Assembly: GCA_016839905.1 (NCBI GenBank)
Contig: JAEOTJ010000270.1
Location: 1-23,274, forward strand
DNA length: 23,274 bases
Direction of reading: 5' to 3'
From: Promethearchaeota archaeon
GTDB taxonomy: Archaea; Asgardarchaeota; Lokiarchaeia; Sigynarchaeales; SOKP01
The notes under the pieces were generated by a model, which worked only from the letters and a program-made list of their open reading frames with translations, was not told where the DNA came from and made no database searches. Shown here in pieces: positions 369-16,659 of the stretch (its first letter is position 1; each line of letters begins with the position of its first letter). The translations under genes were made by a program, and so were the position numbers.

Positions 369-530
369 ATGACCACGACAACATCTAACATTGATATATT
401 TATTGTATTTATGATAATTGGATTAATAGGCATAATTTTAAGCATTTTGCTTATTATATACTTAATTTTAAAGTTTCTTAAGGCAAATAAAAAGGTCGAA
501 TCTGAAAATAAGGAGAAAATTAAGAAGTAA
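369..530 (+). CDS. Small single-pass membrane protein (53 aa), paralog of the upstream gene
   Basis: Found by direct reading. ATG at 369 and TAA at 528-530 enclose a 53-residue frame: Thr-rich start (MTTTTSNIDIF), a hydrophobic helix at about residues 10-36, and a Lys/Glu-rich cytosolic tail (KANKKVESENKEKIKK). It has the same architecture as the product of 171-353 and follows it by 15 bases, so it is probably the second cistron of a two-gene operon. Its last 11 bases overlap the convergent gene at 520-1479. Its length, correct topology and similarity to the upstream product support it as real, but a gene this short stays uncertain. Confidence 0.55.
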   Translation: MTTTTSNIDIFIVFMIIGLIGIILSILLIIYLILKFLKANKKVESENKEKIKK

Positions 531-1479
531 GAATCCGTTCATGAAATGTATCATATTTTTCAATTACTTCTCCAGTATTTTTATTTAATTTGACATAAAC
601 CATATAACCTCTATTATTAGCCATACTTTCTGCTAAGCAGAGCATTATAGTAATGATCTCCTCCTCCTCTTTAATGATTGGAATAATATATTCCCATTTT
701 GAGAAAAATCGATATTCTAAACCTATTAATCTCGCCTTGTTGTACAATTCCATCTCCCTCGTTCCTTTTTTAATCATTATTTCCATTACTACATGGTTTT
801 GAGATGATAAATGCTTTTTTTTGGTAAGCTTGAACGATACATAGTCTTCAATATCTTGAACTTCATAAATATTATAAATAAAAGGAATTAGTCCAGGAAT
901 AAAATTTCCCCCTGGATGTGAAGATTTTACCCATAATTTTAACATGATCCTGTATGTGAAATTAAAGATATAAATTCCAGAAAAAATATAGGCTAGGATA
1001 ACAAAGATATTCCAATCTGCATTAATCCTACCTAAAATGCGGAAAATTAAGAGAAATGCTCCAGATATCATCGCTAAAAATGGATTTATTGCTCGATCTA
1101 TAGCAAAACGATATTCTTTTTTAGAAATTGGATATAAGGCAGGAATTTTTGATGTTGTAAGGAGGTCGAGTGTAATATGGAGCCCATAACCTAAAAATCC
1201 AACAATCCAAGCCCATAGAAATAGAGCGTCAGTTAGAAGAGAAAAGATAAGCGCAATTAAAGCTGATATGATAAGAGCGATAACATATGAATGAGAAGCT
1301 GATTTATGAGCTAAGTAATATGAATTAAACTTTTTTTTTAAAGGTTGAAATATAATATCGAGATCGGGTAAAATCACCATGAGACCAAGAATATAAATAT
1401 ATTCTGGATCTAAGCTTAGATTATTTATTGCAAATATGCCAAATAGAACTCCAATAAAAAAATGAGAAAATAAATCCAT
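520..1479 (-). CDS. Membrane-bound metal-dependent hydrolase, YdjM/DUF457-like
   Basis: A 319-residue protein whose first half is membrane-embedded. Conserved features of the YdjM-like integral membrane metal-dependent hydrolase family are visible: His6 in the MDLFSH start, a PDLD motif at 38-41, HKSASHS at 58-64 and GLHITLDLLTT at about 99-109 (His101, Asp105). These His/Asp residues would ligand the metal. The second half has further hydrophobic segments and a soluble C-terminal domain rich in beta strands (about 200-319) that I do not recognise. The natural substrate of this family is unsettled; some members are linked to membrane or DNA-damage processes. It is convergent with the small membrane protein pair and downstream of the selenoprotein-like cluster, with no obvious functional tie to it. 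Confidence 0.75.
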   Translation of the reverse strand: MDLFSHFFIGVLFGIFAINNLSLDPEYIYILGLMVILPDLDIIFQPLKKKFNSYYLAHKSASHSYVIALIISALIALIFSLLTDALFLWAWIVGFLGYGLHITLDLLTTSKIPALYPISKKEYRFAIDRAINPFLAMISGAFLLIFRILGRINADWNIFVILAYIFSGIYIFNFTYRIMLKLWVKSSHPGGNFIPGLIPFIYNIYEVQDIEDYVSFKLTKKKHLSSQNHVVMEIMIKKGTREMELYNKARLIGLEYRFFSKWEYIIPIIKEEEEIITIMLCLAESMANNRGYMVYVKLNKNTGEVIEKYDTFHERILTS

Positions 1480-1540
1480 AATTTTTCAGTTTGTAGTTAT
1501 TATTAAATTCTATTATTTTTATTAGGACACTATCCTATTG

Positions 1541-1575
1541 TCCATCTTTCACTAGCATTTTCTGAAAGAGATCAT
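1541..1575 (-). promoter_or_regulatory. Candidate SECIS hairpin A (eukaryote-like core), 3' of selenoprotein-like gene A
   Basis: On the minus strand: ATGA (1572-1575), one base, stem CTCTTTC (1564-1570), a 13-base loop AGAAAATGCTAGT, stem GAAAGAT (1544-1550), then GGA (1541-1543). Six of seven pairs form. Flanking ATTG and CAAT can extend the helix below the core. Copies B and C have TGA where this one has GGA, so this is the least canonical of the three. It begins 7 bases after the stop of the extended reading frame. Known Lokiarchaeal and eukaryotic SECIS elements have an AUGA/UGA non-Watson-Crick core and an A-rich apical loop; the helix here is shorter than the eukaryotic one. Confidence 0.5.
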
Positions 1576-1581
1576 TCAATT

Positions 1582-2049
1582 TTATTTATTATCTTTATAA
1601 TAATGAGCGAAATATTCATTATCTTTACCATATTTCTTTCGGATGAGTGTTTTAAACTTGGAGATATCTAATCGATTCTTCACTTTTTCTCATCAACACC
1701 CAACATCGGGTTGTAATTGAATTTCGCTATTAGGATATATATTAAATTCAATATTATCGCGAATTGGGTTGAATTTTCTCATGGCTCCATTTTCATCGGG
1801 ACCATAGGCATTAACTCCAACATCATCATAAATAGAATTATTTACAAAATCAATTAACAATTGCAAATAATTATGAATATAGCCCTCATTTATTGGAAAG
1901 ATAGAATCTTCAGGATTTTCAAGTACTTGTTTATCGACTATAGCCAAAGCTTCAACAAATGTAGCATCGTCCTTCACATTTACTACAAATTTCTTTCCTT
2001 TCTGATGCCCTTTTAGGGGTAAATTAATATCAAAAATGATTTTTTTTAT
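1582..2049 (-). CDS. Putative selenoprotein A: small beta-grasp-like protein with in-frame UGA UGA (UU)
   Basis: With UGA read as Sec this is 155 residues. Residues 1-118 look like a small beta-grasp (ubiquitin/ThiS/MoaD-like) fold: strand KKIIFDI, strand FVVNV, helix DDATFVEALAIVDK, and a final NIYPNSEIQLQPD strand. UGA UGA (1690-1695) gives C-U-U at 118-120. The frame then stays open for 35 codons (EKVKNRLDISKFKTLIRKKY onward, ending FAHYYKDNK) to TAA at 1582-1584, and that tail is conserved in copies B and C. A conventional caller would see only 1693-1977 from an internal GTG, losing the first strands. The start I infer is ATA at 2047-2049, six bases after AGGTGAT, because the conserved N-terminus has no ATG, GTG or TTG. 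Alternative: two coupled cistrons, the second starting at GTG 1681-1683. Confidence 0.6.
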
Positions 2050-2127
2050 TTTTCAATCACCTACTTTCTTTTCTTTAATATTTTTAAATGGAAACATGGA
2101 GTTTTTATTCAAGAGGCCATCTTGTTG

Positions 2128-2162
2128 TCAATCTTTCACTAATATTTTTTAAAAGATCTCAT
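2128..2162 (-). promoter_or_regulatory. Candidate SECIS hairpin B, 3' of selenoprotein-like gene B
   Basis: On the minus strand: ATGA (2159-2162), one base, stem ATCTTTT (2151-2157), a 13-base A-rich loop AAAAAATATTAGT, stem GAAAGAT (2131-2137), then TGA (2128-2130). Seven pairs form, the last a U-G wobble. AUGA facing UGA is the quartet of eukaryote-type SECIS elements. The first pair is A-U here and G-C in copy C, a compensatory change. It starts six bases after the stop of the extended frame. Confidence 0.6.
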
Positions 2163-2168
2163 TCATTT

Positions 2169-2624
2169 TTAATTTCTATCATGCTTTTCAAAATAATGAG
2201 CAAAATTTTCATTTTCCTTTCCATATAACTTTCTTATAATCGTTTTAAATCTCCCATAATCCGGTCTGCTTGCCACTTTTGCTCATCAACCTCAGGAATC
2301 GGATGTTAATGAAATCTCACTGTTGTCATATAAATTAAAATTAAGATTTTTTTGAATGGGCATGAATCCTCTCGCACTAGCCGCAAAAACATTTATATCG
2401 GAGTAGAGTATGTTATCTTGTGGAGACCAAAAGAGCTGAAGGTAGCTCCTTACAAAAATATGATTCTTTGAGAAGGGTGATAACTCCGGATTTTTAAACA
2501 TTCTCTTGTCAACCTCAGCTAATGCTTCAATAAGAATGGCATCATCTTTTACCTCTACTACAAATTCTCTATTTTTGCTAACTCCATTTTCAGGGATCCT
2601 TAATTGAAATGTAATTTTTTTTAT
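2169..2624 (-). CDS. Putative selenoprotein B: beta-grasp-like protein with U-G-U-U motif
   Basis: With UGA as Sec this is 151 residues. The fold pattern matches copies A and C: KKITFQL strand, EFVVEV strand, helix KDDAILIEALAEVDKRM, SYLQLFW, and terminal NLYDNSEISL. Three in-frame UGA codons (2292-2294, 2286-2288, 2283-2285) with a Gly between give S-U-G-U-U at 110-114. The frame continues in a conserved tail (AKVASRPDYGRFKTIIRKLY onward, FAHYF) to TAA at 2169-2171. The only conventional start in the beta-grasp part is ATG at 2499-2501, which removes the first 41 residues. I therefore infer ATA at 2622-2624, nine bases after a perfect GGAGG. It is 31 bases downstream of the CxC thioredoxin-like gene. 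The coupled-cistron alternative (GTG at 2271-2273) is weakly supported by a GAGGT just upstream. Confidence 0.6.
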
Positions 2625-2655
2625 TTTTATTTACCTCCTTAATTTTTTTATTTGA

Positions 2656-2943
2656 TTAAATCAATCCTTTATTTTTAAGTAATTCAGGTAAATGCTTTTT
2701 TAAAGCAATTGTTGATGTAAATTTGCGTTTTCCATCTATTAAAACACAATTTCCAAGAATATTATTATTGCGAGCTTCGTCTGAATTTAGGTTTTTTGTA
2801 TTAAAATTAATAAGCTTAATATAAGGGGTTAAGATTTCAAAAATCTGGTTCATATAATTGTCCCACATGCATAAACACGTATCTAATGGAACATAGATAT
2901 CCAAGTTCAATTTATCAGATTTAAATATTTTTTGTTCATTCAT
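2656..2943 (-). CDS. Small thioredoxin-fold-like protein with CxC motif
   Basis: A 95-residue protein: strand LDIYVPL, then D-T-C-L-C-M-W (residues 22-28) at the helix start where thioredoxins carry CxxC, a helix (MNQIFEILTPY), strand IKLINF, a helix with SDEARNNNILG, strand NCVLIDGK, then a C-terminal helix (TIALKKHLPELL). The alternation fits a thioredoxin or ArsD-like fold, and the G-N-C-V-L-I-D-G stretch resembles the strand after the usual cis-Pro site. A paired CxC could bind As(III), Hg(II) or another soft metal, or act as a redox site. It sits between two putative selenoproteins on the same strand, so a chaperone or reductant role for that pathway is reasonable inference. The family is not identified with certainty. 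Confidence 0.65.
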   Translation of the reverse strand: MNEQKIFKSDKLNLDIYVPLDTCLCMWDNYMNQIFEILTPYIKLINFNTKNLNSDEARNNNILGNCVLIDGKRKFTSTIALKKHLPELLKNKGLI

Positions 2944-3029
2944 GCGATTAATCTACTTAGACTAATTATGTTGTATTATTATATTTTTTTCTTATATTTT
3001 ATTAAAAATAATAGGAGGCCTTCCTATTG

Positions 3030-3064
3030 TCAGTCTCTCACTAGGGTTTTCTGATAGACTTCAT
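3030..3064 (-). promoter_or_regulatory. Candidate SECIS hairpin C, overlapping the end of selenoprotein-like gene C
   Basis: On the minus strand: ATGA (3061-3064), one base, stem GTCTATC (3053-3059), a 13-base loop AGAAAACCCTAGT, stem GAGAGAC (3033-3039), then TGA (3030-3032). Six of seven pairs form, with one A-G mismatch. The AUGA/UGA quartet and A-rich loop are intact. The extended frame of gene C ends at the TAG inside the loop, so this element partly overlaps coding sequence, unlike A and B. Confidence 0.6.
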
Positions 3065-3529
3065 TCTTTTTTTTTTCTGGAAGTAATGAGCGAAAGTTTC
3101 ATGTTGCTTTCCATATTTACTCATTATTATTCGTTTGAAGGTACCATAATCTAAGCGTTCTTTCATGACATCAGCTCATCAATCAGCATGGACAGATAGA
3201 ATTATTTTGCTATTGGGGTAAAGATTAATATTAATATCTTCGTTTAAGCCCATGAATTCTCTATTAGGTCCATACGCATTTATCGCACATTCCTCGTAAA
3301 TTTTATCCTCTTCTGCATCCCAGATCAATTGAAGATAACTCTTAATTAGACCTTTATATAAAGGAAATACAGATTTTTCAAGATTATCAAATACCCTCTT
3401 ATCGAGTATTCCTAGGGCATCAACAATAGTACCATCATCTTTAATTTCAACGGTAAAATCAATACCATTTGATAAAACTCTTTCCGGGGCAATGATAGTT
3501 AGGTTTATTTTCTTAATTTTAATTATCAC
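3041..3529 (-). CDS. Putative selenoprotein C: beta-grasp-like protein with in-frame UGA UGA (UU)
   Basis: The first of the three paralogs in transcription order. The beta-grasp-like part reads KKINLTI, FTVEI, helix DDGTIVDALGILDKRVF, SYLQLIW, and NLYPNSKIILSVHAD. It is followed by UGA UGA (3176-3181) and then ADVMKERLDYGTFKRIIMSK and KYGKQHETFAHYF to TAG at 3041-3043. A GTG at 3527-3529 could start it, but that codon lies inside the AGGTGAT ribosome binding sequence. Alignment with A and B favours ATT at 3515-3517. The UU pair sits a few residues after the last strand, where ThiS/MoaD/ubiquitin proteins carry Gly-Gly. It lies 24 bases after the HgcB-like gene, so it is probably co-transcribed. 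A separate second cistron starting at ATG 3164-3166 is the alternative. Confidence 0.6.
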
Positions 3530-3553: not shown

Positions 3554-4072
3554 TTACTCCATATCTTCTTTCTTGGTTCTTTCTTCTTCTGGCACTGGGC
3601 AGCAAGTGTTTAAATTAGGTTTTATGAATTCATCAAAAGCTTTTAAGACTTGCTTATCAAAACTTTCGGGAATGTTAGGACCACAACAGCTTGTTGATGT
3701 ATCTGTTGGTGAGCAACAACTAGTTGATGGAGCTATAGGAGCACTTTCAGTAGGGGCACATCCACATCCGCAATATGCCTTTCCACTCTTTTCTGCCTTC
3801 TTACGTGATCTTGCATCCCATAAACAACCACATCCTTCTTGTTCATTCATGATTATTGCCTGTGTAGGGCAATTTCTTTGACAAGCACTACATTCCGTGC
3901 ATAACTCGGGCTTACTAATTTCAAATTTACCAGAGCCATCAGATATTGGAAGCCCAAATGGACATACTTCACTACAGAGCCCGCAACCATTGCATATGGA
4001 TTTATCAATTAAAATCCGCTCACTTCCTTCAGGAGTACTACAAGAACTTGAATCTTTTTTTGTTTCTGTCAT
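3554..4072 (-). CDS. hgcB-like: HgcB-like 2[4Fe-4S] ferredoxin with vicinal-cysteine tail
   Basis: A 172-residue protein with 20 cysteines. Two CX2CX2CX3C clusters (Cys27/30/33/37 and Cys58/61/64/68, each followed by Pro) would bind two [4Fe-4S] centres. After them comes E-G-C-G-C (81, 83), at the place where HgcB has its extra conserved Cys, then C-G-C-G-C (101-105) and three vicinal pairs, S-C-C at 119-120 and 129-130 and T-C-C at 157-158. HgcB passes electrons to the corrinoid of HgcA and ends in a Cys pair thought to handle Hg(II); this tail is much longer than usual. It lies 40 bases after the HgcA-like fusion gene. The CC repeats would also suit As(III). Mercury versus arsenic cannot be settled from sequence. 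Confidence 0.8.
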   Translation of the reverse strand: MTETKKDSSSCSTPEGSERILIDKSICNGCGLCSEVCPFGLPISDGSGKFEISKPELCTECSACQRNCPTQAIIMNEQEGCGCLWDARSRKKAEKSGKAYCGCGCAPTESAPIAPSTSCCSPTDTSTSCCGPNIPESFDKQVLKAFDEFIKPNLNTCCPVPEEERTKKEDME

Positions 4073-4112: not shown

Positions 4113-5795
4113 TCACACTTGATAAAAAAATATACTTAATGCAAAAGGTATTAAACTTACTACTAGTAAAATCATATTGATTTTTGTAAAAATGGGATAA
4201 ATATTTTGAATTTCTCTGGGATTTGTTGCCATTGTATATCCGCTGGAGGACATTGTAGAAAAAAATGCAATCCAAAAATAGAAAAGAAAACTCAATAACA
4301 CTAGGATTATAGAATTATGTAAAATCCAAGAGAGAAAACTTAAAGTAATTCCACTTAATAGCCCAAAGAATAGCCCTTTCTTCACAAAACAAGTAGTGAA
4401 CCCTGAGAGGGGCAAAAATAGGAATATAATTACATTTGCAATTACTATTGCTAAGCATAATTCTGCTAGCCACCAGAAATTACTTGACACATCCATAAAA
4501 ATACTCAAGCCAATAAACAATATTAAGAGAGCTATTATAGGGTAAAAGAAGATTTTTCTAAATAAAAAGGTTATGTGTGTAATACCTGCACGAGCTCTAT
4601 GAGATAATGTAAATTTAGCAAGTTTCATGGAGTCGGGCTTTCTAGCAGGACGTTCCTCTAAATATCGTGGAAGATCTTTTGACCAAACAGATCCATAATT
4701 TATTCTAAATGGAAACTTTTCTGATTTTTTAGGCAATTGTGGTACAGCAACACCCCCTGCTGAGAGTTGGGGGAGGATTAATGTCTTCTTTTTCGTGAGT
4801 TTATGAATATCAGTGGCATAAACGGCTTCTAGCAACTGAGGGTTTCCAAAGTCATTCCCACGAGCCGCACACCATACATTTATGCCATTAGAGTCTACAC
4901 ATAATACCCAGGCATCTATATGTTGGATGTTTCGCATCACTTTAATATAAGTATAGTCGTAATTAGCAGTTACAATTATAGGGGAATTATCATCAGGATT
5001 GCCAGACTTATATATTCCAGGTTCAATAGCGACTCCATCAATCTGTCCAGTGAACAGACATCGATAGATCCTTAATTGTGATTTAATCCCTTTAAAGTTC
5101 TTAAGTTCGGGTCTATAATAACCCGGTTCATCATGAAGACTACCATTGATCTTTTGCAATTCAAGTGTTTGGATTACTCCACTTTTCCATTTTTGTACTG
5201 AGATAACCTTAAAACCAATAGGTTCAAGATAATTAAAAAACCATTTTAAGACATGTGTAGTTCCTAATTGAAGACGTTTAAGTTTCTTTTTATAGCGCCA
5301 GCGCTTAATCTTAAATATGAGTTTAGGAAAACCAGAGGGTATAAATTCAGCTGCCAATAATAAATAACCCCCAGGTTTTAATACCTTCCATGCGTTTCGA
5401 AGGAGGATTTGTTGCTCAAACGGTCGAAGTTCAGAAAGCATAAAAGTACTAACAACAACATCTTGAGAATTGTTTTCGACAGGAAGGTTATTAAAAGTAC
5501 CAATTTGATATTTGAGACTAATCTCTTCTTCCGAAGGATAATTATTCAATGCAAAATTGATCATTTGGTAATTTTTATCGATACCAATAACTTCATTACC
5601 CATTTTAGCAATATTCGCTGCTAGAGATCCAGTACCACAACCAACGTCTATCACCTTATTATTAGGACCAACCTTATTTAAAATCCATTCTCGAACCTTA
5701 ATATTTACTCCTTTCGTCAGAGTAGTGAATTTAGAATCGTAAGTTTCTGGTTCTTCCTCTAATTTACGCATATAAGCAACAGCTATAATCCTCAC
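4113..5795 (-). CDS. hgcA-like: SAM methyltransferase fused to HgcA-like corrinoid membrane protein
   Basis: 560 residues in three parts. Residues 1-215 are a class I SAM methyltransferase (IDVGCGTG at 49-56, a GID acidic strand end at 71-73, and a VLKPGGYLLLAAE strand). Residues 225-405 match the corrinoid-binding domain of HgcA: cap-helix N-V-W-C-A-A at 306-311 with Cys309 as predicted cobalt ligand, then LSAGGVAVPQL and YGSVWSKDLPRYLEE. Residues 415-558 hold five hydrophobic helices, the HgcA number, with SSSGYTMATNPREIQ near the last loop. HgcA transfers a methyl group from methylcobalamin to Hg(II). The usual G-K-G-T after the cap Cys is R-G-N-D here, so this is a divergent member. The start is GTG 5793-5795, or ATG 5769-5771. 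It follows the ACR3 gene by 10 bases and precedes the HgcB-like gene. Confidence 0.85.
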   Translation of the reverse strand: MRIIAVAYMRKLEEEPETYDSKFTTLTKGVNIKVREWILNKVGPNNKVIDVGCGTGSLAANIAKMGNEVIGIDKNYQMINFALNNYPSEEEISLKYQIGTFNNLPVENNSQDVVVSTFMLSELRPFEQQILLRNAWKVLKPGGYLLLAAEFIPSGFPKLIFKIKRWRYKKKLKRLQLGTTHVLKWFFNYLEPIGFKVISVQKWKSGVIQTLELQKINGSLHDEPGYYRPELKNFKGIKSQLRIYRCLFTGQIDGVAIEPGIYKSGNPDDNSPIIVTANYDYTYIKVMRNIQHIDAWVLCVDSNGINVWCAARGNDFGNPQLLEAVYATDIHKLTKKKTLILPQLSAGGVAVPQLPKKSEKFPFRINYGSVWSKDLPRYLEERPARKPDSMKLAKFTLSHRARAGITHITFLFRKIFFYPIIALLILFIGLSIFMDVSSNFWWLAELCLAIVIANVIIFLFLPLSGFTTCFVKKGLFFGLLSGITLSFLSWILHNSIILVLLSFLFYFWIAFFSTMSSSGYTMATNPREIQNIYPIFTKINMILLVVSLIPFALSIFFYQV

Positions 5796-5805
5796 CCAAT
5801 TCTCA

Positions 5806-6852
5806 TTAAATCACAGGTTTTTCGGACTCCCAAAAACTACGCTTTTCTAGAAATTTTCCTAAATATATAATAAATAACATTATTGGCACTTCCCAAAATA
5901 GCCCCATTGTGGTACCTAATGCGGCAATAGAACCAATCCCATACATGGCGATAGCAGTGGCAATCGCAATTTCAAAATGACTTGATGAGCCAATAATTAC
6001 CGTAATAATTGCTTCATCATATTTTAATTTAAATAATTTTGTAATTAAAATATTATATCCAACCACAATTGCAAATCCAAGCAAGAGTGGAATTGAGATT
6101 AATATTAACAAGTCTGGATTTTTCAGTAAAACGTCTCCATTCAACGAGAAGAGAATTATTAGGGTTGTAAGTAAAGCAATAATTGAAACCTTTCCAACAA
6201 AAGGTCGATATGTGTTGTCAAACCAATCATCGCCTTTAGACGCGATAATTAATCGTTTACTAATAATACCAAGAACTAAAGGAAGCCCAATAAAAAAGAA
6301 TAACGAAATTAACAAAAAAACCCAATTAATTGGAATATTTTGAATACCTGTTAATAATACTACTATAGGAACGTAAAGAAATATTATAGTAATCGTATTC
6401 AAACTAGTATTAACGACATTTTGTTCTTGGTTCCCATCTGCCATCCAACCCCAAACTAAAACCATTGCAGTACAAGGAGAGCTTGAAAGTAATATAATGG
6501 CTACGATTAATTGCTCATGTCCAGGTAAAAAAATGCGTGCCATTAATAAACCAATAATGGGAGCGATGATCCAGTTCGATACAAGCGTTAAAATAATTGG
6601 TTTAGGATTTTTCCCTAATTTTTTCAACTCAGAACCTTGTATGTTCAACATTGCGGGATACATCATTAAGAAAAGACAAATCCCAATTGGTATGGATATC
6701 TCACCAATTTTCCAAGAGTCAATAGCTGTACTAATCCCTGGTATTACTTGAGAAAGAATTATACCGATGATGATGCATAGTACAACCCAAAGCGGTAGAA
6801 GTTTTTCAAAATAATTAATACTTCTCCCTTTTTCCTTTTGTTTCTCATTCAT
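5806..6852 (-). CDS. acr3 (arsB): ACR3-family arsenite efflux permease
   Basis: 348 residues, with hydrophobic segments fitting the ten-helix ACR3 fold. Family hallmarks are visible: S-S-P-C-T-A-M-V-L-V-W at 124-134 with the essential Cys127, followed by W-M-A-D-G-N; S-H-F-E-I-A-I-A-T-A-I-A at 291-302; and F-W-E-V-P-I-M-L with Glu321, the second residue needed for transport. It exports As(OH)3 using the proton motive force. It is the first gene of the minus-strand island and is divergent from arsR across a 185-base intergenic region. No clear ribosome binding site precedes its ATG, so it may be leaderless. Confidence 0.92.
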   Translation of the reverse strand: MNEKQKEKGRSINYFEKLLPLWVVLCIIIGIILSQVIPGISTAIDSWKIGEISIPIGICLFLMMYPAMLNIQGSELKKLGKNPKPIILTLVSNWIIAPIIGLLMARIFLPGHEQLIVAIILLSSSPCTAMVLVWGWMADGNQEQNVVNTSLNTITIIFLYVPIVVLLTGIQNIPINWVFLLISLFFFIGLPLVLGIISKRLIIASKGDDWFDNTYRPFVGKVSIIALLTTLIILFSLNGDVLLKNPDLLILISIPLLLGFAIVVGYNILITKLFKLKYDEAIITVIIGSSSHFEIAIATAIAMYGIGSIAALGTTMGLFWEVPIMLFIIYLGKFLEKRSFWESEKPVI

Positions 6853-7037: not shown

Positions 7038-7442
7038 ATGGTTGGGATGATCATTAATTTAAAACGTGATGAAAAAATCAAGAAGATGTTATGTAGTTGT
7101 GAGGATGGTTGCAATTCCGAGGATTATTTTAAAAAATTACAAGGATTAGGGGAGGAATTAAAGTTTAGGGAAGAGTTTATTAATTTACCTAATTTTGCTT
7201 TGGCATTAGCATCAAAAGAACGACTCATTATAATAAATTCTTTAAAAGAAAAAGACCGGTGTGTATGTGAATTAGAAGTAATCTTGAGCAAATCGCAATC
7301 AACGATTTCCCATCATTTAAGGAAACTTGAGAGAGCTAATTTAATAACAGGGTATAAAAAAGGTAATTTTACTTATTATTCAAGAAATCAAGAAATATTG
7401 AACGAATATCTAAAATTGTTAAAAATAGAATTAGCAATTTAA
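7038..7442 (+). CDS. arsR: ArsR/SmtB-family arsenic-responsive repressor
   Basis: 134 residues with a winged helix: L-A-S-K-E-R-L-I-I-I-N-S-L, then R-C-V-C-E-L (Cys75, Cys77) matching the ELCVCDL metalloid-sensing motif, then the recognition helix SQSTISHHLRKLERANLI and a wing with GNFTYYS. An N-terminal C-S-C-x3-C (Cys19, 21, 25) supplies extra thiols that could complete a three-coordinate As(III) site, as in some bacterial ArsR variants. Binding of As(III)/Sb(III) would release it from DNA. It is divergently transcribed from the acr3-hgcA-like-hgcB-like operon and probably controls both directions through the repeats at 6942-7002. Confidence 0.92.
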   Translation: MVGMIINLKRDEKIKKMLCSCEDGCNSEDYFKKLQGLGEELKFREEFINLPNFALALASKERLIIINSLKEKDRCVCELEVILSKSQSTISHHLRKLERANLITGYKKGNFTYYSRNQEILNEYLKLLKIELAI

Positions 7443-12528: not shown

Positions 12529-14595
12529 TTATATTGGAGTTAATTTATTGGGATCTTGATATTTTTTCGGAGCAGAACTTTTATCACTTTTAGTTGGCAA
12601 GTCTTTTTTAGTTGGTTTGAATTGAATGAGAGATTTATTGCATGCCCAACAAATATTATCTAAGTCCTCCAATGCGTTTTTACAATTCGTGCAATAATAA
12701 GTACCACAATGAGGACAAACAAACGTATAACCCGTAATGGGTCCTTTATGTATTAAACAATAATGCTTTTCTTTAAAGAAACTAATATCCTTTTTCGTGA
12801 TTGCATCTTTCTTTTTTCCTAAGTCCTTTAATCTGATAATCACTCCCTCTGTTTGCCTTAAGTTTCTTTTCATTCTTTTTATAAAGCCAAGCCCTACTAA
12901 AGTGATAAAGGCTATTACAGAGGCAAGGACAATGAACGTTAACATGAGAAAAATTATGAGGGTATCATCATTTTCATGGGGTTCTTCAGCAGACGGAAAC
13001 TCTATTCTTATTGATGCGCAATTTGAACTAATATTACCAAATTCATTATACGCGACTAAAATATAGAAAAATATTCCTTCTTCTAATTCAGTAAGGTGAA
13101 TACTATTATTTTCTAGTCCAGATTCAACTAACGTCAAGTTTTTATTGAACTCTGTAATAGAATTATTAGATTTGTAAATGGAATAATTATCCGCGTTAGG
13201 GGAGCTGGTCCAAGTAAGAATGATATCTTGAAAATGATTATCAGAGATATAATTTATCTGAAAATCATTATACAGTAAGGGGGTAACTTGAACATTTATG
13301 GCCCGACAGTTTGAACTAGAATTCCCATATCTATTAAATGCTACGATTTTATAAAATAAAGCATCATCTTTTGGATGAATAATGGAATAGGTATTATTCG
13401 TGATATTGATGGCTATAATAGTAAGGTTATTGTTAATTTCCGTGATTGTTTCATTATATTCATAAAGCGTATAATTATTAGCTACCCCTATTTGAGTCCA
13501 AGTTAAATTAAATATTCCATCTAAGTCAGGTTCATGGGCATTTGTATTTAAGATTAATTCTCCAGGTTCATTTAAATTAACTGTAAAATATCTAACATCA
13601 GAGTGATATGGTTGACCAGAGGAATTACCGAATATTTGAATTCCGTGTGTACCATCGGCAGGCATCCTTATCGTGTGATTCCCGTATATTGATACGTTTT
13701 GCCCATTCAATGAATAACATAATTCATCCATCGTAATGCTTTCATTAAAACAAATGAATAAACCTGGAACTTTATTATCTCCAATATCATAAAGCGGATC
13801 CCATGAATATGCGAAAGCATCAAAATAATATTCTGCACCAGCTTGAGGATAGGAAGTACTGATACAAACTTCATTTACATAATCTAAAGGCCAATCTAGA
13901 TTATAAGGACCATAATATTGAGTTGAATTCCCCTCGGGAGTTAATTGGAGTTTATATTTTTGAAGCCCTAAATTTTGATATCCTTCATGCCCACATTCAA
14001 AATCAATTCTTAAATGATACCACGTGTTATTCTCAAAACTTGTTATCAAAAAATCAGTAACACCCTTATAATAGTATAAATTGCCGCTAAAGATCTTAAT
14101 ATAGGCACCGTTGTAGAACTCTGGGTCTAAATTTTGACGTAGTGTAATATAGAAAAGTTTGTTTGTGTTATTTCCAAATATCCAAAGCTCAACGGTACCA
14201 CTACTTTGGCTTCCAAAATTATGTGTTGCCTCTGATCTATCATCAGTTCTTATATCATTCATTCCTACTACTTTTTTATGGCCTTCAAGTTCATCCCAAA
14301 TTGTAGGGCGATCATAACCATAACCTGCACTAAAGTACCAATCATTATAAGAAGTATCCCCTTCAGTTCCACTTTCGAACCCATAAGTTGCAGGAAAATA
14401 TCCATCCATGGCGTTGTAATATGTCTTATTCTCAGGATATGTAATTGTAATCTCAGATGCACTACTTTCGGGTAATTTTATGTTGTTAAAAGCCGAATTT
14501 TTCAATGTTCTATCCTTTAAATTCGGAGTAATAAAAAGTGGATATGGTAATATGAGAAAAAATATAAGTACGGGAATTATTTTTTTATTTTTCAT
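12529..14595 (-). CDS. Surface protein: signal peptide, ConA/LamG-like region, two FN3-like domains, TM, cytosolic zinc finger
   Basis: 688 residues. A signal sequence (MKNKKIIPVLIFFLILPYPL) leads into an extracellular part. About 60-265 resembles a concanavalin/lamin-G fold (TVELWIFGNN, NTWYHLRIDF, YYFDAFAYSWDP). About 345-440 and 440-535 are two FN3-like domains, with ILTWTSSPNADNYSIYKSNN in the second. Many N-x-S/T sites are present. A membrane helix at about 545-572 is followed by a basic stop-transfer (KRMKRN). Eight zinc ligands lie in the cytosol: Cys613, His616, Cys627, Cys630, Cys635, Cys638, Cys649, Cys652 (B-box/RING-like spacing). It could transmit binding of sugars or other surfaces to an internal partner. 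It is a tandem paralog of 14617-16659. Confidence 0.75.
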   Translation of the reverse strand: MKNKKIIPVLIFFLILPYPLFITPNLKDRTLKNSAFNNIKLPESSASEITITYPENKTYYNAMDGYFPATYGFESGTEGDTSYNDWYFSAGYGYDRPTIWDELEGHKKVVGMNDIRTDDRSEATHNFGSQSSGTVELWIFGNNTNKLFYITLRQNLDPEFYNGAYIKIFSGNLYYYKGVTDFLITSFENNTWYHLRIDFECGHEGYQNLGLQKYKLQLTPEGNSTQYYGPYNLDWPLDYVNEVCISTSYPQAGAEYYFDAFAYSWDPLYDIGDNKVPGLFICFNESITMDELCYSLNGQNVSIYGNHTIRMPADGTHGIQIFGNSSGQPYHSDVRYFTVNLNEPGELILNTNAHEPDLDGIFNLTWTQIGVANNYTLYEYNETITEINNNLTIIAINITNNTYSIIHPKDDALFYKIVAFNRYGNSSSNCRAINVQVTPLLYNDFQINYISDNHFQDIILTWTSSPNADNYSIYKSNNSITEFNKNLTLVESGLENNSIHLTELEEGIFFYILVAYNEFGNISSNCASIRIEFPSAEEPHENDDTLIIFLMLTFIVLASVIAFITLVGLGFIKRMKRNLRQTEGVIIRLKDLGKKKDAITKKDISFFKEKHYCLIHKGPITGYTFVCPHCGTYYCTNCKNALEDLDNICWACNKSLIQFKPTKKDLPTKSDKSSAPKKYQDPNKLTPI

Positions 14596-14616: not shown

Positions 14617-16659
14617 TTATTTGGGATTTTGATATTTTTTAAGAGCTGAATTTTTATCACTTTTAGTTGGTGGATGTTTTATAATTGGTTTGATTTGCTT
14701 GAGAGGTTTTTCGCATGCCCAACAGATACGTTCCATGACCTCCAATGCGTTTATGCAATTCATGCAATAATAAGCACCACAATGAGGACAAACAAACGTA
14801 TAGCCCGTAATGGAGCCTTTATGGACTAAACAATAATGCTTTTCTTTAAAGACTGGAATATCTTCTTTTATGAACACATTTTTCTTTTTTCTTAAGTCCT
14901 TTAATGTATTAACCACTCCTTCTTTTTGCTTTAATTCTCTTTTTATTCTTTTCATTGAACTGCCCCCTATCAAAGTGATTGAAATTATTACAGAAATAAG
15001 GATCATTATCATTATAATGAGAAAAATTATGAGAGTATCATTATTGGGTTCTTCTCTAGGTGGAGCCCCTAATCTTATTGATGCACAATTTGAAATACTA
15101 TACCCAAATTCGTTATATGCAACTACAATATAGTAAAATATTCCTTCCTCTACTTGAGTAATGTTAAAACTATTCTTTTTTAGTCCAGATTCAACTAATG
15201 TTAAGTCATCATTGATCCCTGTAATATATTTTTTAGATTTATAAATAGAATAATTATCCACATTAGGGGAATTGGTCCAAGTAAGAATGATCTCTTTAAA
15301 ATGAGAATGATACATGTAATTTACCTGAAAATCATTATATAATAAAGGGGTAAGATGAACATTTATGGACAGGTAACTTGAACTAGAATTCCCATATCTA
15401 TTAAATGCTACGAGTTTATAAAATAAGACTTCGTTTTCTTGACGAATCATGGTATAGGTCTTATTCGTTATATTAGTGGCTAAAATAGTAAGGTCCTGAT
15501 TAATTTCCATGATCGGCTCATGATGTTCATAAAGAGTATAATTGTTAGCTACCCCTATTTGAGTCCAAGTTAAATTAAATACTCCATCTAAGTCAGGTTC
15601 TTGGGCACTTGTATTTAAAATCACTTCTCCAGGTTTATACAAATTAACCGTAAAAAATCTAATATCAGAACGATATGGTTGACCAGAGGATGTACCGAAT
15701 ATTTGGATGCTATATAACCCATCAGCAGGCATCCTTATCGTGTGATTTCCATGTATTGATACGTTTTGTCCATCTAAAGAATAATATAATCCTTGCATCG
15801 TCATGCTTTCCTCAAAACAAACAAATAATCCTGGATCTTTATTATCTCCAATATCATAATGTGGATCCCATGAATAAGCAAAAGCATCGAAAAAATATTC
15901 TGAACCAGATTGAGAATAATCAGCATTGATCTCAACTTCACTTATAACTTCCACAGGTTCATATAAACTATAAGGGCCATAATATTGAGTCATCCCCCCC
16001 TCGGGTGTTATTTGGAGTTTAAACTCTTGAGTGCTTAAATTTTGATATTTTCCATTCCCACATTCAAAATCAATTCTTAAATGATACCACGTGTTATTAT
16101 CAAGACTTGTTATCAAAATATCAGAGTATCTAAAAAAATACAAGCTACCGTTCGTGATCTTAAGAAAGATGCCTGTGTAAAGATCAGAATCTATAGGACC
16201 ACGAAACAAGATATAGAAGGCTTTATTTGTATTAATTCCAAGTATCCAAAGCTCAACTGTACCATTACTCTGCATTCCAACATTATGTGTTGCGGATGGG
16301 CGATCATCAGTTCTAGTGTCATTTATTCCCACTACTTTCTTATGGCCTTCAAATTCATCCCAAATTTTAGGATAAGTATAACCATAATTTGATATAAATC
16401 TCCAATCATTACTAGAAGTATCCCCTTGAGTTCCACTATCGAATCCGTAAGTCGCGGGATAATATCCATCCATGGCGTTATAATATGTGTTATTCTCAGG
16501 AGTTATAATTTTAATTTCAGATGTACTACTTTCGGGTAATTTTATGTGGTTAAAAACCGAATGTTTTAATGTTCTCTCCATTAAATTTGGAGTAATAAAA
16601 AATTGATAAGGTAATATAAGAAAAAATATAAGAATATGAATTATTTTTTTATTTTTCAT
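14617..16659 (-). CDS. Surface protein with cytosolic zinc finger, tandem paralog of the next gene
   Basis: 680 residues with the same order of parts as its neighbour: signal sequence MKNKKIIHILIFFLILPYQF, ConA/LamG-like region (TVELWILGIN, NTWYHLRIDF, YFFDAFAYSWDP), two FN3-like domains with ILTWTNSPNVDNYSIYKSKK, a membrane helix at about 542-566 and cytosolic zinc ligands Cys610, His613, Cys624, Cys627, Cys632, Cys635, Cys646, Cys649. The most conserved stretch between paralogs is the zinc finger (KEKHYC, ITGYTFVCPHCG, ICWAC). The extracellular loops vary more, which fits a shared internal partner with diverging external ligands. It is 21 bases upstream of the second copy, so the pair is probably co-transcribed. 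The ligand is unknown. Confidence 0.75.
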   Translation of the reverse strand: MKNKKIIHILIFFLILPYQFFITPNLMERTLKHSVFNHIKLPESSTSEIKIITPENNTYYNAMDGYYPATYGFDSGTQGDTSSNDWRFISNYGYTYPKIWDEFEGHKKVVGINDTRTDDRPSATHNVGMQSNGTVELWILGINTNKAFYILFRGPIDSDLYTGIFLKITNGSLYFFRYSDILITSLDNNTWYHLRIDFECGNGKYQNLSTQEFKLQITPEGGMTQYYGPYSLYEPVEVISEVEINADYSQSGSEYFFDAFAYSWDPHYDIGDNKDPGLFVCFEESMTMQGLYYSLDGQNVSIHGNHTIRMPADGLYSIQIFGTSSGQPYRSDIRFFTVNLYKPGEVILNTSAQEPDLDGVFNLTWTQIGVANNYTLYEHHEPIMEINQDLTILATNITNKTYTMIRQENEVLFYKLVAFNRYGNSSSSYLSINVHLTPLLYNDFQVNYMYHSHFKEIILTWTNSPNVDNYSIYKSKKYITGINDDLTLVESGLKKNSFNITQVEEGIFYYIVVAYNEFGYSISNCASIRLGAPPREEPNNDTLIIFLIIMIMILISVIISITLIGGSSMKRIKRELKQKEGVVNTLKDLRKKKNVFIKEDIPVFKEKHYCLVHKGSITGYTFVCPHCGAYYCMNCINALEVMERICWACEKPLKQIKPIIKHPPTKSDKNSALKKYQNPK

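Follow-up and report, generated by a model that had tools for sequence, protein, structure and literature searches.

Adjacent UGA Codons in Tandem Genes of an Asgard Archaeon: A Putative Selenoprotein Family Associated with Arsenic-Type Genes

Three tandem paralogous genes were recognized in the contig JAEOTJ010000270.1 of the assembly GCA_016839905.1 from a Promethearchaeota archaeon (23,274 nucleotides, the whole of which is called the window here). The frames of these genes, located on the minus strand between 1541 and 3529, traverse UGA UGA and run into a common tail. It is almost certain, judging from the sequences, that the two UGA codons encode adjacent selenocysteine residues (Sec-Sec) and that the genes represent a selenoprotein family of Asgard archaea, apparently unlisted before for these archaea in the parts of the literature surveyed. 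Four lines of evidence lead to the Sec-Sec interpretation: the UGA pair does not vary, the tail is under selection, the selenocysteine insertion sequence (SECIS) on the 3' side shows covariation, and related genomes encode Sec machinery. The same four lines support the vicinal diselenol selenoproteins proposed in an earlier sequence-only reading of this DNA. The putative genes are as follows.

1582..2049, minus strand: selenoprotein gene A (type A), G-C-U-U at the site, Sec codons at 1690-1695
2169..2624, minus strand: selenoprotein gene B (type B), S-U-G-U-U at the site, Sec codons at 2283-2288 and 2292-2294
3041..3529, minus strand: selenoprotein gene C (type C), H-A-D-U-U at the site, Sec codons at 3176-3181

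These coordinates place the UGA pair in frame in all three paralogs, as the sequence-only reading had stated, and the extra UGA that it had noticed two codons earlier in B, giving U-G-U-U, is found at 2292-2294. When the frames are read through, B is 49% and C is 45% identical to A. The tails of A, B and C have the motifs R-x-D, F-K-x-x-I, Y-G-K, and F-A-H-Y in common. No family in Pfam or NCBIfam was assigned to A, B or C; gene B alone showed two Pfam matches with E-values of 0.04-0.06, far under the cut-off.

The UGA pair is invariant among relatives. A pattern search of genome contigs revealed 46 loci, all titled Lokiarchaeota or Lokiarchaeia, and together with the window they include 55 open reading frames (ORFs) of the family, two of which are cut off before the site. 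TGA TGA is present at the site in all 53 ORFs that reach it (three from the window), and thus a chance origin of the UGA pairs is excluded. More divergent Asgard members, 29-46% identical to the first of them, have Cys-Sec-Sec encoded with UGA UGA in 11 of 11 cases. A genome scan of the phylum found the family in 62 of 227 genomes. The site is reached by 77 of its 82 matches, and the other five stop before it; all 77 include at least two TGA codons, to which three add a single TAA or TAG within the aligned region. The adjacency of the TGA codons was confirmed for the 53 family ORFs and the 11 divergent members, while the genome-scan matches are represented by TGA counts.

A profile search of 5.8 billion proteins revealed 329 relatives. 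Among the 120 matches listed, two of which are the window's own, 88 end exactly at the site and 32 have Trp-Trp there, as gene calls with a UGA = Trp code would give. Because most entries end at the site (88 of the 120 listed), the family has escaped notice among the short hypothetical proteins. When only the tail was used as the query, six matches were obtained, all with Trp-Trp, and the listed database relatives of the divergent members all end in the Cys directly before the pair (31/31). Cys at the site was observed neither in the 120 listed of the 329 relatives nor in the 31 relatives of the divergent members, and no Cys or Gly version of the UGA pair was seen in any family member. Where the source names an organism, it is an Asgard archaeon, except for P0079 and P0143, which are labelled as bacterial genomes and may be mis-binned. 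The search for homologs with Cys-Cys or Sec suggested in the sequence-only reading thus gave the UGA pair throughout. An origin of UGA from GGA, from which it had noted a one-base difference, was not supported, with no GGA-to-UGA intermediate seen.

The tail shows the features of a protein-coding sequence. The uncorrected ratio of nonsynonymous to synonymous differences (pN/pS) was 0.215 for the tail and 0.227 for the domain in 22 disjoint gene pairs from 46 sequences. When all pairs were used, the values for tail and domain were 0.239 and 0.284 at an identity of at least 60%, and 0.211 and 0.209 at an identity of at least 70%. The tail is under purifying amino-acid selection much like the domain, as far as sequence comparison can tell; it is about 35 residues long, conserved, and predicted to be partly helical. 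The conservation of the tail in protein sequence, which had been claimed from the window alone, is borne out by the common motifs and by this selection. A stop at the site with an independent start for the tail had been named as the pattern that would speak against Sec; every relative seen instead keeps the UGA pair, and the tail is selected in frame.

An element resembling the eukaryotic SECIS (eSECIS-like) is located at the stop codon or directly 3' of it, and it is followed by a second hairpin. In the window, these elements are as follows.

1541..1575, minus strand: eSECIS-like element of gene A, with AUGA at 1572-1575, a stem, an AAAA loop, and a GA core
2128..2162, minus strand: eSECIS-like element of gene B, with AUGA at 2159-2162
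3030..3064, minus strand: eSECIS-like element of gene C, with AUGA at 3061-3064
1523..1537, minus strand: second covarying hairpin after the SECIS of gene A
2110..2124, minus strand: second covarying hairpin after the SECIS of gene B
3012..3026, minus strand: second covarying hairpin after the SECIS of gene C

The element has AUGA ... GA (or AA) as its core, together with an upper stem and an apical loop rich in A, and matches the type I SECIS model of Asgard archaea in the available part of PMC11227280. Among 44 aligned elements, no variation occurs at the GA in the first half of the core, at three of the loop's adenines, at the G-U on the 3' side of the loop, or at the A in the second core half. 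Changes on both sides were observed in 11 of 14 pairs, and none of 500 shuffles reached the observed values. The lower stem (helix 1) was unsupported (3 of 44 at p <= 0.05) and was discarded. A scan with a fixed rule detected a SECIS after 48 of 51 A-, B- and C-type genes (two of the 53 genes have too little 3' sequence) and after 9 of 11 divergent genes, versus 32 of 602 control genes, which are the other genes of the same loci. The genes missed are those of L006, L022 (with a UUGA core), L044, L142, and L146, and no recognizable SECIS element is present in L006. In L019 (9910-10940), two consecutive family genes of different types apparently have one downstream SECIS in common. The frame of gene C bypasses the UGA of its SECIS, enters the SECIS loop, and ends at TAG 3041-3043 (window 3041-3082); perhaps this anomaly comes from an indel in the adjoining upstream poly-A run in the assembly, or from a recent change. 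Rfam at its gathering thresholds gave no match in the window.

In 21 genomes, among them those from which many of the training sequences came, a covariance model built from the 44 family sequences had 59 matches. Among the matches, 28 weaker ones are outside the family. Of these, 19 were examined: 13 coincide with the end of a gene that has an in-frame TGA and was read as HdrA or VhuD, and the other six are not at such ends (part of one region is masked). Among the 13 ORFs, the four that were scanned had the HdrA or VhuD models as their best matches, under the cut-offs. Since the model also matches the ends of HdrA/VhuD genes, the family element is, on sequence grounds, of the hosts' own SECIS type. 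The second hairpin, with a U-U-G-C-like loop, is likewise found 3' of HdrA/VhuD genes and of three divergent members (L108-L126 among the loci). The SECIS prediction called for in the sequence-only reading therefore returned a eukaryote-like element with covarying stems 3' of most family genes. The SECIS model also matches small, apparently membrane-anchored ORFs at L120 (2178-2531), at L125 (2184-2429), and on the minus strand of L113. These have one in-frame TGA near the end, such as C-D-I-F-U and C-D-L-P-I-U, and the ORFs of L120 and L125 have no NCBIfam match at an E-value of 0.001. It is possible that the three are further unlisted Asgard selenoproteins.

The Sec machinery was counted in 21 related genomes, a set outside which the window's own genome lies, and in 14 control genomes. 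O-phosphoseryl-tRNA(Sec) selenium transferase (SepSecS) is over the cut-off in 21 of the 21 related genomes versus 1 of the 14 controls. SelD is over the cut-off in 19 of the 21, always with one in-frame TGA in the match; in the controls, the SelD model gave weak matches in 14 of 14 and matches over the cut-off in 2 of 14. Lack of any Sec machinery, the other pattern named as fatal to the proposal, is contradicted by these counts for the related genomes.

The domain upstream of the pair is predicted to be a beta-grasp of the sulfur-carrier type represented by SAMP1, CysO, and MoaD. In structure comparison of the predicted domain, the closest folds were SAMP1, CysO, MoaD, and Urm1, and the last aligned residues pair the first Sec of the family with the last residue (Gly) of SAMP1. 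This agrees with the earlier suggestion that the pair lies where ThiS/MoaD-like proteins have Gly-Gly. Matches to PI3K, Ras-binding, and transcobalamin domains were set aside as shared beta-grasp architecture. The members differ from MoaD, ThiS, CysO, SAMP1 and Urm1 in that a C-terminal Gly-Gly is absent in all members read, with Sec-Sec and the conserved tail in its place, and in that none of 49 members showed a ThiS/MoaD Pfam match at an E-value of 0.05.

A third soft residue, Cys or Sec, accompanies the pair in 63 of 64 members. Cys is directly before the pair in type A (33/33) and in the divergent type, designated as type D (11/11), and type B (2/2) has a third Sec two residues before the pair. 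Type C has neither Cys at -1 nor Sec at -2, but Cys is present at -36 in 17 of 18 members (the exception is L044); in gene C of the window, this is the Cys 36 residues upstream of the first Sec. In the alignment with the type A model, the Cys at -36 falls on V77, where the third strand begins, and in a ubiquitin-type sheet, that strand neighbours the strand leading to the position of the C-terminal pair. Because a third ligand is supplied in three ways, the sequences suggest a three-coordinate soft site, of the kind preferred by As(III).

The genomic neighbourhood also points to arsenic. The genes adjacent to the family in the window are as follows.

520..1479, minus strand: YdjM-family membrane protein, a downstream neighbour in 20 of 47 loci including the window
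2656..2943, minus strand: small predicted thioredoxin-fold protein with C-x-C (TRXL), a conserved partner that belongs to no Pfam family
3554..4072, minus strand: HgcB-like ferredoxin with a Cys-Cys rich tail (HgcB 44.5 bits, cut-off 99)
4113..5795, minus strand: fusion of a CpaM-like S-adenosylmethionine methyltransferase, an HgcA-like corrinoid domain (NVWCA motif), and a hydrophobic part
5806..6852, minus strand: ACR3-type arsenite efflux transporter (281 bits, just under the cut-off of 282.8)
7038..7442, plus strand: ArsR/SmtB metalloregulator, divergent to the operon (ArsR 72, cut-off 55)

The window has the features of an ars operon, an ArsR regulator and an arsenite exporter. Among the 47 loci (window included), ACR3 was found in 27, ArsR in 30, and the thioredoxin-fold protein in 37, while the CpaM-HgcA-like fusion was found in 13 and the HgcB-like ferredoxin in 17. 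In 23 of 35 loci, an ACR3 gene is present no more than 5 kb upstream, and ACR3 is over the cut-off in 9 of the 21 genomes. The sequence-only reading had suggested that the pair would bind As(III) or Hg(II). Linkage to the family is more frequent for ACR3 and ArsR than for the HgcAB-like genes, so that the context speaks for arsenic rather than mercury, and a role in mercury handling alone was weighed and given a low rank. The fusion of the window scores 162.9 bits for HgcA against a cut-off of 275, and is also under the NCBIfam cut-off for CpaM, as are two fusions and one HgcB-like protein of relatives under theirs. The window's fusion lies in an ACR3 operon and is a candidate for a corrinoid arsenic methylation enzyme.

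It is likely, from these sequence features, that the family has a role in arsenic handling, and the interpretation that fits best, with somewhat less assurance, is a carrier of arsenite by a diselenol (plus a thiol) in arsenic operons. The beta-grasp domain would end in (Cys)-Sec-Sec instead of Gly-Gly, followed by the conserved tail, and two successive UGA codons, or three UGA codons in type B, would be decoded as Sec under the direction of the SECIS at or after the stop. The two selenols and the third soft residue would form a three-chalcogen site for As(III), and the C-x-C thioredoxin-fold neighbour would either reduce the Sec site or exchange arsenic with it. The arsenic load may be handed to ACR3 for export, and where the CpaM-HgcA-like corrinoid methyltransferase is present, it may receive the load. 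The full combination is more tentative: no Cys form seen, Sec-Sec in place of Gly-Gly, As(III) carried for export by ACR3 and in some cases for corrinoid methylation, and AUU or AUA as the start of some genes.

Several results weigh against this interpretation, in its selenium part or its arsenic part. Constraint on the tail is weaker than that on the domain in gene pairs with at least 80% identity (pN/pS 0.227 vs 0.171). The tRNA-Sec is over the Rfam cut-off in 5 of the 21 related genomes and likewise in 5 of the 14 controls, with lower-scoring matches in all 14 controls; tRNA-Sec by Rfam is weak evidence here. With a stricter SECIS score, the element is recovered in 41 of 51 A-, B- and C-type genes and only 3 of 11 divergent ones (controls 5/602), and the covariance model matches just 3 of 11 divergent loci. 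In comparison with shuffles, the single-sequence folding energy of the SECIS is no better for A and mildly better for B and C. The predicted fold has no Foldseek match at E <= 0.001, and its VIA Z-scores are under 8. ACR3, ArsR, the thioredoxin-fold protein, and the HgcAB-like genes are all missing within 5 kb upstream in 9 of 35 loci, and divergent members adjoin an aldehyde:ferredoxin oxidoreductase (3/11) or cation-efflux transporters (3/11, two of them scanned). Arsenic is therefore perhaps not the sole partner. In L137, L141, and L146, divergent Cys-Sec-Sec members are beside aldehyde:ferredoxin oxidoreductase and ferredoxin-like genes.

If the UGA codons were ordinary stops or Trp codons, the tail would be spurious. 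The 88 entries ending at the site and the 32 with Trp-Trp among the 120 listed could be taken in this sense, but both versions conflict with the invariance of the pair, the selection on the tail, the covariation of the SECIS, and the presence of Sec machinery, and were rejected as having a negligible probability. The strongest competitor accepts Sec-Sec and takes it as a redox centre, a diselenol/diselenide or a selenenylsulfide, for example in an enzyme that reduces As(V) or methylated As(V), with the C-x-C neighbour recharging it. The thioredoxin-fold protein in 37 of 47 loci would suit such a function, most uncharacterized selenoproteins are considered likely to be redox proteins in the available part of the review PMC13188914, and no arsC is reported for Asgard genomes in the part of the cold-seep survey PMC10060404 that was consulted. 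In 10 of 47 loci, however, the family has a thioredoxin-type ArsC-like gene beside it, and a pair kept with a third soft residue by three routes would rather resemble a binding site; the redox function is unlikely, though a serious candidate.

Two other roles are much less probable. The family could serve the HgcAB-like corrinoid system as an acceptor or donor of Hg(II) or of a methyl-metal product. This would agree with the fusion (13/47) and the HgcB-like ferredoxin (17/47), both present in the window, and with Table 1 of PMC13188914, where Cys-Sec selenoproteins are given both for HgcA and for the bacterial SAO system for organometals. Against it, ACR3 (27/47) and ArsR (30/47) are linked more often, several loci consist of ArsR, ACR3 and the family without HgcAB, and the window's HgcA and HgcB scores are under their cut-offs; the role is improbable. 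Slightly more improbable still is a MoaD-like carrier that ends oddly in Sec-Sec and supplies sulfur or selenium for tRNA modification or a tungsten cofactor. The closest folds and the aldehyde:ferredoxin oxidoreductase beside divergent members (3/11 loci) are in its favour, but the members read have no C-terminal Gly-Gly and a conserved 35-residue tail extends beyond the site, and the 49 members searched gave no ThiS/MoaD match. The arsenite carrier with Sec-Sec is thus preferred to these alternatives.

ArsD-type arsenic metallochaperones are three-ligand carriers of As(III) encoded in ars operons. The proposed role of the family is alike, while its predicted fold and its selenium ligands set it apart. 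Seven selenoprotein families of Asgard archaea are listed in the available part of PMC11227280: HdrA, VhuD/FrhD, FrhA, SelD, Prx-like, AhpF-N, and DsbA-like. The present family resembles them in the Asgard host, the Sec machinery, and the eSECIS-like 3' element, but is outside the seven and differs in the adjacent Sec-Sec, the predicted beta-grasp, and the arsenic context. SaoC, SaoL, MbdU, and Sec-HgcA, given in Table 1 of PMC13188914, likewise have a vicinal soft pair and a proposed role with metals or organometals, but theirs is Cys-Sec and they are listed from bacteria; A, B and C matched none of the SAO/MbdU NCBIfam models at an E-value of 0.1. Neither an adjacent Sec motif nor such a family is among the 119 families and subfamilies of that table, and neither was described in the literature surveyed, including passages of PMC9723677, PMC10418091, and PMC10060404, a survey that does not prove absence from print. 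Two successive invariant UGA recodings, apparently with one 3' SECIS, offer a test case for processive Sec insertion, and the archaea hosting this double recoding are those closest to eukaryotes. If the interpretation is true, a metal site made up of two selenols and one thiol would link selenium with the handling of arsenic.

The start codons of part of the family genes appear to be unusual. Among 52 of the 55 ORFs (L044 without the motif, L014 with a mis-set motif, and L016 at a contig edge were dropped), 16 lack ATG, GTG and TTG in the stretch from the final in-frame TAA or TAG to the first conserved residue, and 11 of these 16 have ATT in it. When an upstream TGA is also counted as a stop, the number without these codons is 24 of 52. 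With all three stops counted, 2 of 35 thioredoxin-fold neighbours lack these codons, a lenient control since the motif used is further from the start. In gene A, no ATG, GTG or TTG follows the nearest in-frame stop (a TGA), and ATA at 2047-2049 is preceded by a strong Shine-Dalgarno sequence. Gene B has none after the last in-frame TAA, and its candidate start is ATA at 2622-2624 or 2628-2630. Gene C could start at GTG 3527-3529 or at an ATT downstream of it. ATT or ATA is located a short distance from a strong Shine-Dalgarno sequence in many family genes, and non-AUG initiation (AUU/AUA) in part of the family would be a simple explanation of these sequences.

Elsewhere in the window, 12529-14595 and 14617-16659 are a tandem duplicate encoding a protein of about 680 residues that includes a hydrophobic segment and is rich in Cys in its C-terminal part.

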